From assembly GCF_000761215.1 (NCBI RefSeq), contig NZ_CP009438.1:1116001-1180000 (forward strand): a stretch of DNA of 64,000 nt. The letters are read 5' to 3'. Positions 21,664 through 28,330 of this stretch are shown here, in pieces (the stretch's first letter is position 1; every line of letters starts with the position of its first letter). Position numbers and translations under genes: made by a program. Below the pieces are notes generated by a model that searched no databases, was not told the origin of the DNA, and saw nothing but the letters and a program-made list of their open reading frames with translations. The DNA is from Streptomyces glaucescens. Its GTDB lineage: Bacteria; Actinomycetota; Actinomycetes; Streptomycetales; Streptomycetaceae.

Positions 21664-22386
21664 TTGTTCTACCACCTGCTCAAGTACGTGCTGCTCGGGC
21701 CGCTGCTGCGGCTGGTCTTCCGCCCCCGGATCGAAGGGCTGGAGCATGTGCCCGCGTCGGGGCCGGCCATCGTCGCCGGGAATCACCTGTCGTTCTCGGA
21801 CCACTTCCTGATGCCCGCGGTGCTCAAGCGGCGGATCACCTTCCTGGCGAAGGCGGAGTACTTCACGGGCCCCGGGCTGAAGGGGCGGCTCACCGCCGCG
21901 TTCTTCCGCAGCGCGGGGCAGATCCCGGTGGACCGCTCCGGGAAGGACGCGGGACAGGCGGCGATCCGGGAAGGGCTCGGGGTGCTGGGCAGGGACGAGC
22001 TGCTCGGGATCTACCCGGAGGGCACGAGGTCGCACGACGGGCGGCTGTACAAGGGGAAGGTCGGGGTCGCGGTGATGGCGCTGAGGGCCGGCGTGCCGGT
22101 CGTGCCGTGCGCGATGATCGGCACCTTCGAGGCCCAGCCGCCCGGCCGCAAGCTGCCCCGCGTCCGTCCGGTGACGATCCGCTTCGGCGAGCCGCTGGAC
22201 TTCTCCCGGTACGCCGGGATGGAGAACGAGAAGGCGGTCCTGCGCGCGGTCACGGACGAGATCATGTACGCGATCCTGTCGCTGTCCGGGCAGGAGTACG
22301 TCGACCGGTACGCGGCGGACGTGAAGGCCGCGGAGGCCGCCGCGGAGCGCAGGGAGCGGCCCTTCCGGCGGCTGCCGCTGAGCTGA
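21664..22386 (+). CDS. 1-acyl-sn-glycerol-3-phosphate acyltransferase (PlsC-like)
   Basis: A 240-residue membrane-associated acyltransferase of phospholipid synthesis. Motif I is NHLSFSDH (His41, Asp46), motif III YPEGTRSHDG, and motif IV GVPVVPCAMIGT. An N-terminal hydrophobic stretch (LLKYVLLGPLLRLVF) would anchor it. The start is a TTG at 21664, supported by GAGGAGAG about seven bases upstream and by the family N-terminus. It stops 11 bases from the convergent methyltransferase gene, with no room for a terminator between them. Confidence 0.92.
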   Translation: MFYHLLKYVLLGPLLRLVFRPRIEGLEHVPASGPAIVAGNHLSFSDHFLMPAVLKRRITFLAKAEYFTGPGLKGRLTAAFFRSAGQIPVDRSGKDAGQAAIREGLGVLGRDELLGIYPEGTRSHDGRLYKGKVGVAVMALRAGVPVVPCAMIGTFEAQPPGRKLPRVRPVTIRFGEPLDFSRYAGMENEKAVLRAVTDEIMYAILSLSGQEYVDRYAADVKAAEAAAERRERPFRRLPLS

Positions 22387-22397
22387 CCTCCGGCACG

Positions 22398-23246
22398 TCA
22401 AGCGAGACGGGCCCGGGCGACCCAGTGGTGGTCGCGGGGCGGGCACAGCCGCTCGGGCGGCGCCGGCACCCAGGGGCAGCGGCCCGCGGCGAGTTCCCGC
22501 AGCGTGTACGCCTCCGCCTGCCAGCCGCACCGGTCCAGGAGGCCGCCGAAGTCCTCCAGGCCGAGCCGGAAGGCGGAACCGCGGGCCCGCATGAACGCCA
22601 GGAAGGCCGCGTTCGCGGGATCCTGGAAGTAGGCGGCGTGCGGGGCGTCGGCCAGCAGGACCGAACCGGGGCCCGACATCTGCCCGATCCGCGTGAGCAG
22701 CCGCGTGAAGTGCTCGGGCTCCAGGTAGGGCAGCAGGCCTTCGACGATCCAGACCGCGGGTTTCGTCCCGTCATAGCCGGCCTCTTTCAGCCGCCGCGGC
22801 CAGGTGCCGTCCCGCAGGTCCTCGCCGAGGGTGACCCGGCGGCAGGTGAGCCGGTCCGCGACGGGGGCGAGCAGCGCGTCCTTGGCCTCCAGCTGACCCG
22901 GCAGGTCGATCTCGAAGAACCGCGTGCCGGGAGGGAACGGAAGGCGCCAGGCCCGGGTGTCGCCGCCCGCCGCGAGACACACCACCTGGCCGATCCCCTG
23001 GGCCGTCGCCTCACCGAGCGCGATGTCCCCGAACCGGCCCCGTACGATCACGGATCCGACGGTGCCGCCCGCGGCCAGCGCCTCCTCGGCGAGCGCCCGG
23101 GACCGTGGCGTGCTGAGCAGCGCCGCGTGGGGGTCCGCCAGGTAGGCGTCGGGGCGGTCGTTCTCCATGGCCCTGATCACGGCGGTGATGAAACCGGTCT
23201 CCTTGACGGCCGTGTGCCCGTCGTCGCGCCGGGTCGCGTCCGTCAC
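22398..23246 (-). CDS. SAM-dependent methyltransferase (TIGR00027/LCMT-like)
   Basis: A 282-residue class-I methyltransferase of the group found in natural-product and mycobacterial proteins (TIGR00027). Motifs are KETGFITAVIRAMENDRPDA near the N-terminus, the SAM site VVCLAAGGDTRAWRL, the acidic ribose-binding FFEIDLPGQLEAKD, and the family motif IVEGLLPYLEPEH. The GTG at 23246 overlaps the preceding monooxygenase stop (GTGA), so it is the last gene of the PrnB-type operon. It probably O- or N-methylates the product of the two oxidative enzymes. The substrate is unknown. Confidence 0.88.
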   Translation of the reverse strand: MTDATRRDDGHTAVKETGFITAVIRAMENDRPDAYLADPHAALLSTPRSRALAEEALAAGGTVGSVIVRGRFGDIALGEATAQGIGQVVCLAAGGDTRAWRLPFPPGTRFFEIDLPGQLEAKDALLAPVADRLTCRRVTLGEDLRDGTWPRRLKEAGYDGTKPAVWIVEGLLPYLEPEHFTRLLTRIGQMSGPGSVLLADAPHAAYFQDPANAAFLAFMRARGSAFRLGLEDFGGLLDRCGWQAEAYTLRELAAGRCPWVPAPPERLCPPRDHHWVARARLA

Positions 23247-24490
23247 CGCGCACCCCCGACGGACAGCGACGGCCTGGTGTTCACCCAGTCCTGGTCGAAC
23301 TTCCCGGTCACCGCGTAGCCACGGGAGATCTCCGCGAGTTCCTCCTCGCTGAAGACGTCCCGTACGTCGGCGAATCCGCCGGGGGCTCTCTGGTGCGCCA
23401 TCGTGAGTACCCTTTCCGGGCCCAGGGAGCGGTTGCTCCGCTGCAGTTCCGTCATCTGCGGCCGGCGTTCCGCTTCGTAGGCCCGCAGGGCCGTGCCGGG
23501 GTCGTCGGGGTGGCGGGCGAGGTGCCAGGCGAGCACGCGTGCGTCGATGACGGCCTGGGTGGCTCCGTTGGACCCGGCGGGATACATGGCGTGCGCGGCG
23601 TCGCCGAGGAGGGTCACGCCGCCGAACGTCCACCGCGGGAGGGGGTCCCGGTCGATCATCGGGTAGCGCTGGATGTCCGGTGTGCCCTCGACCAGCGCCG
23701 CCAGGTTCACCCCGGGTGGTGCCCAGTCGCCGAGGTGACGCAGGATGTGCTCGCGCATCTCCGCGGGGTCCGCGGCGGGCCGCTCGTCGGGGAAGGCGGC
23801 CACCCAGTTGATGAGGGTCGTGTGCGTGGTGTCGTCCCGGTCGATCGGGTAGAGGACGAGGCGCCTCCGGTCGTCCCCCAGGACGGCCATGGACTCCCCG
23901 GTCAGGAACGGCCGTGCCCAGACGGTTCCCCGGTACATCGTCATGCCGTTCGTCGGCGGCGGTCCCTCGCCGGGGTGGAGCGCCGCTCGCACGGCGGAGC
24001 GAATGCCGTCGGCGCCGATGAGCAGATCCGTCTCGACGGTCCTCGTGGTGCCGTCCCGGCTCGTGAAGACCGCGCGGGTCCGGCCGGGAGTGCGGTCCAG
24101 GCCGACGAGCCGGGCGTCGGTGACGACCGCGCCGTCACCGAGGCGGCGTCGAGTCTCCGCGGCCAGCACGTGCACCAGCCGGGCCCGTGACACGGACAGC
24201 TGCGGCCACCGGTAGCCGGCCGCCAGGCCGCGGTCCTCCCGCCACACCAGGGTGCCGCGCGGGTTGTACATCGCCAGTTCCCGCGTGCGGACGGCCCGTT
24301 GCCGCACCGCGTCCAGCAGTCCGAGTTCGTCCAGCTCGCGCACGGCGTTGGGCAGGATGTTCAGTCCCAGTCCGTGCGGGCGCAGCCCTGGGTCGGCCTC
24401 GAAGACGGTGACGTCGTGGAATCCGGCCGCGTGGAGACTGACCGCGGTGGCGAGTCCGGCTATCCCGGCACCGGCGACGGTGATCCTCAT
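23243..24490 (-). CDS. FAD-dependent aromatic monooxygenase, PhzS-like
   Basis: A 415-residue group-A flavin monooxygenase that would hydroxylate an aromatic substrate with NAD(P)H and oxygen. The FAD/ADP loop GAGIAG is at 7-12, the DG motif at about 159-166 (GADGIRSA), and the GD motif at about 295-312 (LLGDAAHAMYPAGSNGA). The segment MYRGTVWARPFL and the strand before the GD motif (YPMIDRDPLPRW) look like PhzS of pyocyanin synthesis. The tryptophan-halogenase WxWxIP motif is absent. It overlaps the PrnB-like gene (ATGA) and the methyltransferase gene (GTGA), so the three are one operon. Confidence 0.9.
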   Translation of the reverse strand: MRITVAGAGIAGLATAVSLHAAGFHDVTVFEADPGLRPHGLGLNILPNAVRELDELGLLDAVRQRAVRTRELAMYNPRGTLVWREDRGLAAGYRWPQLSVSRARLVHVLAAETRRRLGDGAVVTDARLVGLDRTPGRTRAVFTSRDGTTRTVETDLLIGADGIRSAVRAALHPGEGPPPTNGMTMYRGTVWARPFLTGESMAVLGDDRRRLVLYPIDRDDTTHTTLINWVAAFPDERPAADPAEMREHILRHLGDWAPPGVNLAALVEGTPDIQRYPMIDRDPLPRWTFGGVTLLGDAAHAMYPAGSNGATQAVIDARVLAWHLARHPDDPGTALRAYEAERRPQMTELQRSNRSLGPERVLTMAHQRAPGGFADVRDVFSEEELAEISRGYAVTGKFDQDWVNTRPSLSVGGAR

Positions 24491-25569
24491 CGCCCACCCA
24501 CCATGGCTCCGTTGCGGCGGGTGAGGGTGAGGATTTCCTCCAGCAGTTCCACGCTTCCTCCGCCGCTTCCCCGTTCGTAGAGCCGCACTTCGGCGTGGTA
24601 GGCCCGGCGCGCCATCACCAGGTGCTTCCCGCGGAAGGCGGTGAGCGACCTGAGGGCTCTGCGCAGTCCCCGCGCGCTGGACCGGGCGTGTTCCCCGGCC
24701 GGGGTACGGGAATCCCGGCAGTTCCCGAGCGCGGCGACCACACGCGAGGTGATGGACGGCATCTCGGTCCACTCGGCATGCCGCTCGCGCCAGCCGGGCA
24801 GGGTGTGCGAGGCGACCTCGTCGCAGAAGGCGAGGTAGTCCCGGCTGCCCCGGTCGGAGGCCCAGAGCAGCAGGTCGATGAGGAAGAGCGGGATGTGCGC
24901 GGCGGCCGGCCCCATGTAGGTGCGGCCCGCTATGCGCACCTCCTCGAAGTAGGGTCTGAGCACGAGGGCGAAGAACTCGGGGGTGACGTCCGCGAGGACA
25001 CCGCTCATCGCCTTGTCGGCCGCCGTGATGTGCGATGCCAGCGACGCCATCCCGGCGGCGCCTTCGGGGGTGCGGAGGTCCTCGTACTGGAGGGAGCGCC
25101 CGACCGTGACCGCCTTCGCCAGCTCCGGCACGCAGGTGCGCACCGCGTGGATGAGACTGCGCTCCATCGGCTGCCCGCTGTAGAGCCGCTCGCGCTCCCC
25201 CACCGGGTTCCAGCAGGTGTAGTGGTAGACGGTGTCCCGCGGGATCATACGGGTGCGCCGCCCGAGGAGTTCGAACAGCTCGGTGGCGCCCGGGACGATG
25301 TCGAAGGCGGACACTCCGTGGCGTTTGAGGCTGCCGACGTACATTCCCAGGTCGCGCATGGCGGCAAGACATTCCGGCAGGGTGAAGGAGGCGATGCGCT
25401 CATGGGGAGGAAGGGCCTCCCGGAGGACGCGCGCCAGCGCGGCGACGTCCCCGTTCTCGTTCATCTTCGGCAATGACCCGAGGTCTTCGTCCAGCCCCAG
25501 CGGATCGAGCCGCCTGACCTTCTCACTGTGTTCCTCGGACGTCACGTCCAGGTGCGCCCTGCCGTCCAT
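24487..25569 (-). CDS. PrnB-family heme enzyme (TDO/IDO superfamily)
   Basis: A 360-residue protein that I assign to the monodechloroaminopyrrolnitrin synthase (PrnB) family, heme enzymes of the tryptophan/indoleamine dioxygenase superfamily. The superfamily pattern Arg-x2-His followed by a glycine-rich loop is visible as FRGKHLVMARRAY, then YERGSGGGS, with the predicted proximal heme ligand at His316. Other segments are VYHYTCWNPVG, PYFEEVRIAGRTYMGPAAAH and LLLWASDRGSRDYLAF. The length matches PrnB (about 360). ATG 25569 has GGAGAG nine bases upstream; TTG 25578 and GTG 25575 are possible alternatives. Codon choice is slightly less GC-biased than in the neighbours. No other prn gene (halogenase, PrnD) is near, so the product is not pyrrolnitrin. 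Confidence 0.8.
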   Translation of the reverse strand: MDGRAHLDVTSEEHSEKVRRLDPLGLDEDLGSLPKMNENGDVAALARVLREALPPHERIASFTLPECLAAMRDLGMYVGSLKRHGVSAFDIVPGATELFELLGRRTRMIPRDTVYHYTCWNPVGERERLYSGQPMERSLIHAVRTCVPELAKAVTVGRSLQYEDLRTPEGAAGMASLASHITAADKAMSGVLADVTPEFFALVLRPYFEEVRIAGRTYMGPAAAHIPLFLIDLLLWASDRGSRDYLAFCDEVASHTLPGWRERHAEWTEMPSITSRVVAALGNCRDSRTPAGEHARSSARGLRRALRSLTAFRGKHLVMARRAYHAEVRLYERGSGGGSVELLEEILTLTRRNGAMVGGR

Positions 25570-25646
25570 GTGCACCAACTCTCCGACGAGGATCCATGAG
25601 CCGCCCGCCGGGCACGAAGGTAGTACGGACCGGACAATGCCTTCTT

Positions 25647-25668
25647 TGGCCTGAAACTAAGGTGAAAC
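25647..25668 (-). promoter_or_regulatory. Direct GTTTC repeats upstream of the PrnB operon
   Basis: On the minus strand GTTTCACCTTA is followed immediately by GTTTCAGGCCA, two 11-base units in tandem, about 80-100 bases before the PrnB-like start and in the most A+T-rich patch of the locus. The spacing of 11 and the GTTTCACC core resemble PHO-box direct repeats, but the match is weak. It may be an activator site or part of the promoter. Confidence 0.3.
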
Positions 25669-25743
25669 CAACCCTCGCGGGGGCGGACTCCACAGGACGG
25701 AGGGGTGGACGGCACACGGCGGCGGGATGGCCGGAACATGACG

Positions 25744-25776
25744 GAGGGGCGGCCGGTGTGGCACCGGCCGCCCCTC
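25744..25776 (-). terminator. Hairpin terminator after the tripeptidyl aminopeptidase gene
   Basis: A perfect 15-bp stem (GAGGGGCGGCCGGTG at 25744-25758 pairing with 25762-25776) with a 3-base loop lies 19 bases beyond the aminopeptidase stop. It insulates the PrnB operon, which starts further along the same strand. Confidence 0.85.
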
Positions 25777-25794
25777 GGCTCGTACGGATCGCGC

Positions 25795-27429
25795 CTACGG
25801 CTTGGGCGTGGCGTGCGGGGCGCAGGTCACGTCCCCGGCATCCAGCTTCCCGGTGAGCAGGTAGGCGTCCACGCGCTCGTTGATGCAGGAGTTGGCCAGG
25901 CCGGTCACCCCGTGGGAGCCGGCGTCCCGCTCGGTGATCAGGCGGGATCCCTTGAAGCGCTTGTGCAGTTCGAGCGCACCGCCGTAAGGGGTGGCCGCGT
26001 CCCGCTCCGCCTGGACGATCAGCACCGGCGGCAGGCCCTTGCCGGTCCGCACGTCCACCGGGGTCCGCTGCTTGACCGGCCAGGTCGCGCACGGCAGGTT
26101 CATCCAGGCGTTGGACCAGGTGAGGAACGGGTGGTCGCGGTGCAGCCGGGTGTTGTCCCGGTCCCAGCGCTCCCAGCTCGTCGGCCACTTGGCGTCGGCG
26201 CACTCGACCGCCGTGTAGACGGCGTTGCCGTTCTCGGCGGCGGCGTTGCCCGCGGTGTCGCCGAGGTCGGGGGCGGCGGCGTCGACGAGGGCCTGGGTGT
26301 CGCCCGCGACGTACTTGCTGAACACGGTGGCCACGGAGACCCACGCGGAGTCGTAGTACGGCGCGCTCTGGAAGAAGCCGGTCAGTTCGGCCGGGCCGAC
26401 GACGCCGCCGATGGGCTCCTTCTTGGCGGTGGCGCGCAACTGGAGCCACTTGGCCTGGACCTCGGCGCGGGTGGTGCCGAGGTGGAAGGTGGCGTCGTTC
26501 CGGGCGACCCAGTCCTGCCAGTCCTGCCAGCGGGTCTCGAAGGCGACGTCCTGGTCCAGGTTGGCCTGGTACCAGATCTTCTCGCGGGACGGGTTGACCA
26601 CGCTGTCGGTGATCATCCGGCGCACGTGGCCCGGGAAGAGGGTGCCGTAGACGGCGCCCAGGTAGGTGCCGTAGGAGACGCCGAGGAAGTTGAGCTTGCG
26701 CTCGCCGAGCGCGGCGCGGATGACGTCGAGGTCGCGCGCGGTGTTCGGGGTCGTCATGTGCGGCAGCATGGCGGCGCTGCGCTCGTAGCAGCCCTCGGCG
26801 TACTCGCGGGCCAGCTTGCGCTGGGCGAGCTTGTCGGCCTCGGAGTCGGGCACCGGGTCCAACTTGGGCGCCTTGACGAACTCCTGCGGGTCGACGCAGG
26901 AGATGGGCGCCGACTTGCCGACGCCGCGCGGGTCGAAGCCGACGAAGTCGTAGGCCTTGGCGACGTTCTGCCACACCGGCGCCTTGGTGGTGACGCGGCG
27001 CGGGAAGCGCAGGCCGGAACCGCCGGGCCCGCCCGGGTTGTAGACGAGGGCGCCCTGCCGTTCGGCCCGGGTGCCGGTGTTGCCGATGCGGTCGACAGCG
27101 ATCTCGATCTGCTTGCCGTACGGCTTGGCGTAGTCGAGCGGCACGGTGACCCAGCCGCACTGGATGGGCTTCTCCAGCCCCCAGTCCGCCGGGCAGTCCT
27201 GCCAGTCGATGCCCTGGTGGGCGGCGCGGGCCGCGGCGATCGCGACGCCCCGGGCCTCGCGGTCCTGACCGTGACGGGCCCCGGCGGCGGCCCGGTCGGT
27301 GCCGGTCGTGGCGCCCGCGTCGGCGCTGGCCGTCGGTGCCGCGACCGCGCCGGCTATCAGGGTCGCCGCGACGAGTGCTCCGGCCGAGCCGAGCGCCGCC
27401 GTCCGCCTGTTCGGTCTGTTGTCCCTCAA
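25795..27429 (-). CDS. Secreted tripeptidyl aminopeptidase, alpha/beta hydrolase S33 type
   Basis: A 544-residue exported serine peptidase that removes N-terminal tripeptides outside the cell. A Sec signal peptide (basic NRPNRRT, hydrophobic AGALVAATLIAGAVA, then ASA) opens it. The nucleophile is in GVSYGTYLGAVYG, the oxyanion strand is VYNPGGPGGSGL, the acid is likely Asp in AERDAATPYGG, and the catalytic His is in AGSHGV. A C-terminal TAP-like domain follows. The start is a TTG at 27429, with GGGGGAGA seven bases upstream. The TTGA overlaps the extended ureD frame by four bases. Confidence 0.9.
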   Translation of the reverse strand: MRDNRPNRRTAALGSAGALVAATLIAGAVAAPTASADAGATTGTDRAAAGARHGQDREARGVAIAAARAAHQGIDWQDCPADWGLEKPIQCGWVTVPLDYAKPYGKQIEIAVDRIGNTGTRAERQGALVYNPGGPGGSGLRFPRRVTTKAPVWQNVAKAYDFVGFDPRGVGKSAPISCVDPQEFVKAPKLDPVPDSEADKLAQRKLAREYAEGCYERSAAMLPHMTTPNTARDLDVIRAALGERKLNFLGVSYGTYLGAVYGTLFPGHVRRMITDSVVNPSREKIWYQANLDQDVAFETRWQDWQDWVARNDATFHLGTTRAEVQAKWLQLRATAKKEPIGGVVGPAELTGFFQSAPYYDSAWVSVATVFSKYVAGDTQALVDAAAPDLGDTAGNAAAENGNAVYTAVECADAKWPTSWERWDRDNTRLHRDHPFLTWSNAWMNLPCATWPVKQRTPVDVRTGKGLPPVLIVQAERDAATPYGGALELHKRFKGSRLITERDAGSHGVTGLANSCINERVDAYLLTGKLDAGDVTCAPHATPKP

Positions 27430-28330
27430 GTCGGGTCTCCCCCTGCGTCGTTGCGTGGACAGGGGGATCCTGGCCGCTGGGCGGGTGCCGGGAACAGGGG
27501 CGCACCGGCTTCTTTGCCAATCCGATAACCGGATAAAGCCATCCCGCTGAGCGGAGCGCCCGTACGGGGGGACTGTCCGAGGTCCGCCAGCGCCGCGTCC
27601 AGCAGCCCGCGCAGCCGCAGCGCGTCCGGCGCCACCGCGCTCACCAGTACGGCGGGCCCGGCGAGGGGCAGCACGGCGGCCCCCTCCCCGAGCGTCCGCG
27701 CCGCCGGCGCGCGCGCCGCGAACTCCGGGCGCGCCACCACGAGCTGCCCCACCGCGCGGTGCCCGCCCAGCCCGGCGGGCCCGTCCCAGCCGCCGGGCGC
27801 CCCGGGCCCGCACGCCAGTTCCTGGTCGAGCACGAGCCGCCCGCCCGTCCGCACCGTCAGACGGCTGGTCAGCCTGCCGGGGGCCTCACCCGTCCGCCCG
27901 AGCACCTGCTCCTCGCGCAGCACCAGCCGCCCGCCGGCCGCCAGGTCGACGCGGGTGCGCACGGTCAGCTCACTGCCGGCCGCGCAGATCAGCTGCTCGG
28001 GCAGCCAGTGCAGCTCGCCGCCCTCGGCCACGGTGAGCCGTACGTCGTAGCGGGCCCCGCCCCCGGCCTGACCCGGCAGGGCGATGGTGGCGGCGGCCGA
28101 GCCGACCCGCAGCCGGGCGTGCTCGGCGGCCTCCGCCGCGACGGTGAGGTGGTCGCCGCCCAGCGGTGCGCTCATCGCGCCGACGAGCAGGACTCGCGCC
28201 TCGCCCTCGTTCCCGCGGGTCCGCCGCAGGGCCAGCGGGGCCTCGCCCGTGAGGACGGGCAGCGCCGTACCGCCCCGGCCGTCGGCCACGGCGCGGATCC
28301 GGGCCGTGGCCCGTACCCCGGTGGCCGCGG

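Follow-up and report, generated by a model that had tools for sequence, protein, structure and literature searches.

A co-inherited cassette of prnB-family, flavin monooxygenase and methyltransferase genes in Streptomyces glaucescens and its probable place in a split chlorotryptophan pathway

PrnB of pyrrolnitrin biosynthesis, which carries out the only known reaction of its family (rearrangement of a tryptophan-type substrate to an aminophenyl-pyrrole), has so far resisted attempts to reconstitute it in vitro; how it works is described as open in an extract of a report (PMC11791213). In the pyrrolnitrin locus of Burkholderia pyrrocinia, two halogenases and a Rieske protein are encoded around prnB. 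Here we analyze a prnB homologue of Streptomyces glaucescens that is accompanied instead by genes for a single-component flavin monooxygenase (FMO) and an S-adenosylmethionine (SAM)-dependent methyltransferase (MT); it lies in a window of 64,000 nucleotides (contig NZ_CP009438.1, positions 1,116,001 to 1,180,000), within which all positions below are numbered. We read the three genes as a biosynthetic cassette that is inherited as a unit and is probably one part of a split chlorotryptophan pathway, with the halogenase encoded ~95 kb away. Full-text searches of openly licensed papers found no published account of the cassette.

The cassette and its conservation

The three genes overlap by four bases each, as the first-pass annotation of this DNA had read them: in an ATGA junction the FMO begins within the last codons of the prnB homologue, and the GTG start of the MT overlaps the FMO stop in a GTGA junction. 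(The scripted gene calls rely on codon GC bias, and some of their starts and small open reading frames are wrong.) The family assignments of that annotation also stand, with all three products scoring above the cut-offs of their profiles (Table 1); PF08933, the PrnB family, had no match in any of 14 control genomes. When the Protein Data Bank was searched with the prnB-homologue protein at E ≤ 10, the two solved PrnBs were the only matches. The protein has the IDO-like fold with a proximal heme histidine, and is predicted from its fold and pocket residues to bind heme: His316, already singled out as the likely ligand, aligns with His313 of PfPrnB and is invariant across 82 aligned homologues. 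The closest solved relative of the FMO, by a wide score difference (next best 95 bits), is 2rgj/3c96; the alignment to 2rgj spans residues 3–359, with the FAD motifs aligned throughout. The title of these entries is "flavin-containing monooxygenase"; the protein in them is PhzS. The MT matches mycobacterial methyltransferases without known substrate.

A scan of GTDB genomes identified nine further loci, in Streptomyces (four), Micromonospora (three), Verrucosispora and Nonomuraea, that encode the PrnB-family protein at 67–91% identity. At all nine, the FMO and then the MT follow the prnB homologue in the same order and on the same strand, so that the co-occurrence in other genomes on which the first-pass annotation had staked its reading is found. 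In five of them (Verrucosispora, the three Micromonospora and Nonomuraea) the FMO and MT share one frame without a stop, and three scanned database proteins of 673–716 residues contain both domains. From these fusions we infer that hydroxylation precedes methylation; the earlier proposal of ring hydroxylation followed by methylation gains support from them. PrnB and FMO distances correlate at 0.979 over 35 loci, a value that owes part to the split into clades, and at 0.940 over the ten cassette loci only; neither value was reached in 2000 permutations. Separately, two FMO relatives (P0170 and P0192) are fused to a flavin-reductase domain (PF01613).

A tryptophan halogenase and its partner cluster

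The S. glaucescens genome encodes one full-length tryptophan halogenase (HAL; 451 bits), ~95 kb from the cassette, and each of the nine other cassette genomes encodes at least one (best scores 449.9–537 bits). Because PF04820 passes its cut-off in five of 14 control genomes too, the analysis was confined to matches that span the full length and score at least ~450 bits. In a sample of 392 Streptomyces genomes, the only genus for which the background frequency was taken, 82 have any match to this halogenase, including all four with the cassette (p = 0.0018). The earlier statement that no halogenase is present is therefore true of the operon and false of the genome; the conclusion drawn from it, that the cassette should make something else, fails at the scale of the genome, and the lack of a halogenase beside the operon is no support for unchlorinated chemistry, with one encoded here and in all nine other cassette genomes.

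Beside the S. glaucescens halogenase lie genes for an aminotransferase (AT), a thioesterase (TE), an aryl-AMP ligase (AMPL), an MFS exporter, an adenylation-thiolation (A-T) didomain, a nonribosomal peptide synthetase (NRPS) fragment and a tryptophan 2,3-dioxygenase (TDO). The HAL-AT-TE-AMPL core recurs in nine of the ten cassette genomes, from four genera, with AMPL 76–100% and AT 77–100% identical. In S. halstedii the halogenase and the cassette are within 10 kb of each other, on a 17-kb stretch that encodes HxlR, a flavin reductase, HAL, AT and TE, a divergent AMPL-PrnB-FMO-MT set, and then a P450 and TDO; in every other of the nine additional cassette genomes they are on different contigs. 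An AMPL of at least 76% identity occurs in only five of the 392 Streptomyces (G000, G017, G225, G238 and G152; next best 61%) and the cassette in four, with both together in three (p = 4e-6, or 2.4e-4 when G000 and G017 count as one). Four longer halogenase loci (16–19 kb) from other Streptomyces contain no AT and no AMP ligase above 30%. The 28 halogenase loci of ~4.5 kb that show no AT are unusable as a control, because L147 shows none though its genome has an AT farther away. The link between cassette and cluster is strong, and it is not exclusive, since two Streptomyces carry the ligase without PrnB.

The AMPL scores 584 against a TIGR02275 cut-off of 723.55, and its pocket motif, HNAALGCPG, departs from those of the salicylate (HNFALACPG) and dihydroxybenzoate (DHB; HNYPLSSPG) types, the second and third positions differing. 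A quinaldate-type set (A-T didomain, P450, TE, TDO, AT and AMPL) is represented in S. glaucescens by five of six members in the 19 kb covered, with no P450 match, and in S. halstedii by all except the A-T didomain. A carrier-protein motif search returned large NRPS proteins and false matches only. In Nonomuraea (L163), one AT-TE-AMPL set is flanked by two different tryptophan halogenases, which share 79% and 62% identity with that of the window's genome.

Proposed chemistry and its alternatives

We take the cassette to be a dedicated tryptophan-oxidising unit. Our tentative first choice, by analogy with PrnB, is that the heme enzyme rearranges (chloro)tryptophan to an aminophenyl-pyrrole, with hydroxylation by the FMO and methylation by the MT to follow. 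The distant halogenase would, as its association with the cassette suggests, chlorinate tryptophan; the PrnB-family protein, judged by its fold and pocket residues, would bind heme and a tryptophan-type substrate and, if it follows the family's known reaction, rearrange tryptophan, likely chlorinated, to the aminophenyl-pyrrole. The PhzS-like monooxygenase would then hydroxylate this pyrrole, and the TIGR00027 methyltransferase, given the FMO-MT fusions, would methylate after hydroxylation. Within the same split pathway, the partner cluster may supply a nonribosomal peptide with a chlorinated acid of the quinoline type. PrnB-type chemistry is favored because of the family, fold and pocket, and a chlorinated substrate because of the partner cluster; a halogen-free product has precedent as well, since 3-(2′-aminophenyl)-pyrrole is a real bacterial metabolite, according to the portion of PMC2630848 cited here.

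Several observations weigh against this proposal. In S. lucensis, the exception among cassette genomes, the best HAL and AMPL are only 37% and 48% identical; G225 and G152 have the AMPL with no PrnB found, which shows that the cassette is dispensable for the presence of the partner cluster, and G152 also has no match to the halogenase. Among solved structures, the S. glaucescens halogenase scores highest with a 6-halogenase (808 bits), followed by a 5-halogenase (794 bits), while PrnA reaches 384 bits; it resembles the 6- and 5-halogenases, not the 7-halogenase PrnA. A second PrnB-FMO clade, described below, shows no halogenase link: of the 82 genomes in 392 that match the halogenase at all, only nine are from its 37 (hand count). 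PrnB itself is inactive in vitro (PMC11791213). The first step is the weak point: an aminophenyl-pyrrole is no obvious substrate for the aryl-acid ligase adjacent to the S. halstedii cassette, because it has no carboxylate; tryptophan is already used in the partner cluster via the dioxygenase and aryl-acid ligase, and a hydroxylating role would fit such a cluster about as simply.

Such a role is only slightly less likely than the first choice: the heme protein would hydroxylate tryptophan or chlorotryptophan, and the cassette would decorate the quinoline-type acid of the partner cluster, with hydroxyls from the heme enzyme and FMO and a methoxy group from the MT. The S. halstedii cassette is embedded in a cluster that also encodes a halogenase, TDO, P450, AT and AMPL, G225 retains a cluster of this kind but no cassette, as would be expected if the decoration were optional, and the AMPL pocket motif could admit a larger acid than those of the salicylate and DHB types. 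A PrnB homologue has been proposed, in a passage its authors call speculative, to hydroxylate tryptophan residues in paenidepsin (PMC13036774, in part), and hydroxylases are included in the superfamily in an excerpt of PMC11904535. However, the pocket residues of the cassette protein match those of PrnB, characterized heme tryptophan hydroxylases are said to fall outside the superfamily (PMC12921851, in excerpt), and there would be some redundancy in a hydroxylating heme enzyme that is always followed by an FMO with a hydroxylating role of its own.

We think it improbable that the cassette forms a separate pathway with unmodified tryptophan as its substrate, the halogenase-cluster association reflecting only shared ancestry or a shared precursor. 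The ~95-kb separation here, the different contigs in the other genomes except S. halstedii, and the second PrnB-FMO clade, with no halogenase link and with its own HpaB, MFS and AraC genes, accord with that view, but the cluster core in nine of ten cassette genomes of four genera, and its contiguity with the cassette in S. halstedii, do not. That the genes are catabolic or detoxifying is very improbable: the broad FMO and MT families are also found in catabolism, but a patchy distribution (four of 392 Streptomyces), one insertion site and placement within the S. halstedii biosynthetic cluster argue otherwise.

Insertion site, wider family and comparison with known systems

The first-pass annotation placed the cassette, as a moved unit, between widely conserved genes, and flank conservation, flank spacing and blastn breakpoints agree with it. 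Homologues of the left flank occur in all of 120 relatives and of the right flank in 115. Flank spacing was tallied by hand from listings that omit some matches: both flanks are within 3.5 kb in at least 44 genomes, own included, and among the matches listed the gap is 95–351 bp in 22 genomes and 1.12–1.33 kb in 19, with 1.63 kb between the aligned flank parts of a partial match in one (G005), and the cassette lies between the flanks in two, S. glaucescens itself and G017 (S. glaucescens NRRL B-2706). Just two of the 120 relatives have a PrnB homologue of >90% identity; nine others carry second-clade or distant homologues. In blastn comparisons, DNA homology to six cassette-free relatives (L073–L076, L078 and L079; three with a short flank gap, three with a gap of ~1.1 kb) ends at 22350–22396 and restarts at 25725–25796. 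The lower GC3 of the cassette (0.89–0.93, against 0.97 in both flanks) fits a later arrival. Insulation by a terminator, also claimed earlier, is not borne out: a search found no terminator-like sites, where shuffled sequence gives an expectation of 0.9, and the hairpin that is present (Table 1) belongs to the 3′ region of the neighboring gene, because homology restarts at 25725–25745 in four of the six relatives. A stretch of ~1.1–1.3 kb fills the cassette site in 19 relatives among the matches listed (e.g. L075, L078 and L079), and for this reason the site may be a favored one for insertion.

Table 1. Cassette genes and surrounding features in the window
Feature	Position	Strand	Description
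prnB homologue	24487..25569	(-)	360 aa; PF08933, 96.9 bits (cut-off 27); predicted heme enzyme, proximal His316
FMO (PhzS-like single-component FAD monooxygenase)	23243..24490	(-)	415 aa; NF005720, 471 bits (cut-off 400), with FAD motifs; PDB 2rgj/3c96, 251 bits
Methyltransferase (SAM-dependent, TIGR00027/PF04072)	22398..23246	(-)	282 aa, GTG start; TIGR00027, 186.1 bits (cut-off 93.55); PF04072, 143.8 bits
Left flank	21664..22386	(+)	homologue of PlsC-type acyltransferases (named by sequence reading, no profile scan); outside cassette
Right flank	25795..27447	(-)	alpha/beta-hydrolase-like gene (named by sequence reading, no profile scan); outside cassette
Inferred inserted stretch	22397..25743		~3.35 kb; blastn against six cassette-free relatives and flank spacing
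Hairpin	25744..25776		perfect 15-bp stem, 3-nt loop, no T run; common to cassette-free relatives

PF08933 matches were found in 49 of the 392 Streptomyces genomes, at 50 places, all of which were examined: four belong to the cassette clade, 37 to the second clade (41–48% identity to the window's PrnB) and nine are more distant. An FMO homologue is directly downstream of PrnB in 4/4, 36/37 and 0/9, respectively, the lone second-clade exception (G217) being seen in a 3.8-kb stretch only; the second-clade FMO is ~47–56% identical to the window's. The MT is present at all four cassette-clade places and at none of the 37 second-clade places, several of which are 4-kb stretches only. The usual second-clade order is AraC-HpaB-MFS-PrnB-FMO (e.g. 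L054:4762-11466 and 23 further loci >12 kb). HpaB is found in 23 of these 24 loci; 17 of the 24 lie between glgE and glgP, four have one of these two genes, and three have neither and carry a ketosynthase and a second FMO. This gene set is widespread in Streptomyces and apparently undescribed. In the PrnB tree, 35 FMO-linked PrnBs form one clade (100/94); FbPrnB has an uncertain position among long branches, and no conclusion was drawn from L060, taken in as a 230-residue piece (branch 8.8).

On a 799-kb plasmid of Streptomyces sp. NBC_01717 (L104), a PrnB-FMO pair lies beside a ketosynthase and a phosphopantetheine-binding protein; its trees disagree, PrnB joining the cassette clade (99/89) and FMO the second clade (100/100). 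A plasmid origin of the cassette is not supported: the six plasmid records matched, the NBC_01717 plasmid among them, were all of <60% identity. Distant PrnB-like proteins at three loci (L080, L084 and L088) are 28–31% identical, with pocket residues unlike PrnB, and a PLP decarboxylase is encoded in their vicinity together with a GHMP kinase, a HAD hydrolase or both; such clusters could oxidise, decarboxylate and phosphorylate tryptophan.

In two PrnB groups, thus, the same kind of FMO follows PrnB in 40 of 41 cases. This suggests that PrnB homologues work with a partner, or feed a later enzyme, that is absent from the pyrrolnitrin locus examined, and it offers a testable idea as to why PrnB by itself may show no activity. 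Should the halogenase-cluster link hold, two seemingly unrelated gene sets would lead to one undescribed chlorinated product, and S. halstedii offers its genes on one contiguous stretch as a target for expression. A more far-reaching, and in its entirety unlikely, synthesis would be a second class of PrnB pathway, in which a mobile heme-flavin-methyltransferase cassette converts 5-/6-chlorotryptophan to a methoxylated chloro-arylpyrrole alongside an unlinked chloroquinaldate-type nonribosomal peptide cluster, one halogenase serving two tryptophan-derived building blocks; the PrnB-FMO-HpaB loci, mostly between glgE and glgP, would be its larger, halogen-free sister class across Streptomyces.

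The cassette protein shares with the solved PrnBs (PDB 2v7i/2x67; 9dfg, from a Flavobacteriales bacterium) its sequence family, IDO-like fold and proximal histidine, together with the substrate-carboxylate serine and the Trp/Tyr/His pocket residues, but is only ~30–33% identical to them, and its loop 328–333 is unlike that of PfPrnB. Gene content read around the cassette in nine related loci includes no PrnA, PrnC or PrnD; pyrrolnitrin biosynthesis proper was rejected as a candidate on the lack of these neighbors and on a halogenase that is not PrnA-like (384 versus 808 bits). The cassette FMO has a PhzS-type enzyme as its closest solved relative and differs from it in that some of its relatives are fused to a methyltransferase; none of the phenazine genes was seen beside the cassette, with no search aimed at them. 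The second clade has the same adjacent PrnB-FMO pair, with HpaB, MFS and AraC in place of the MT. To our knowledge, the PrnB, FMO and MT of the cassette have no counterpart in the quinaldate/quinoxaline pathways of echinomycin biosynthesis. The partner cluster resembles the echinomycin 3-hydroxyquinaldate/quinoxaline pathway (Qui15, Qui17 and Qui18), as far as an extract of PMC3578932 describes it, in its TDO, AT, TE and AMPL and, in some genomes, in an A-T didomain and a P450. It differs from that pathway in the addition of a tryptophan halogenase and a flavin reductase.

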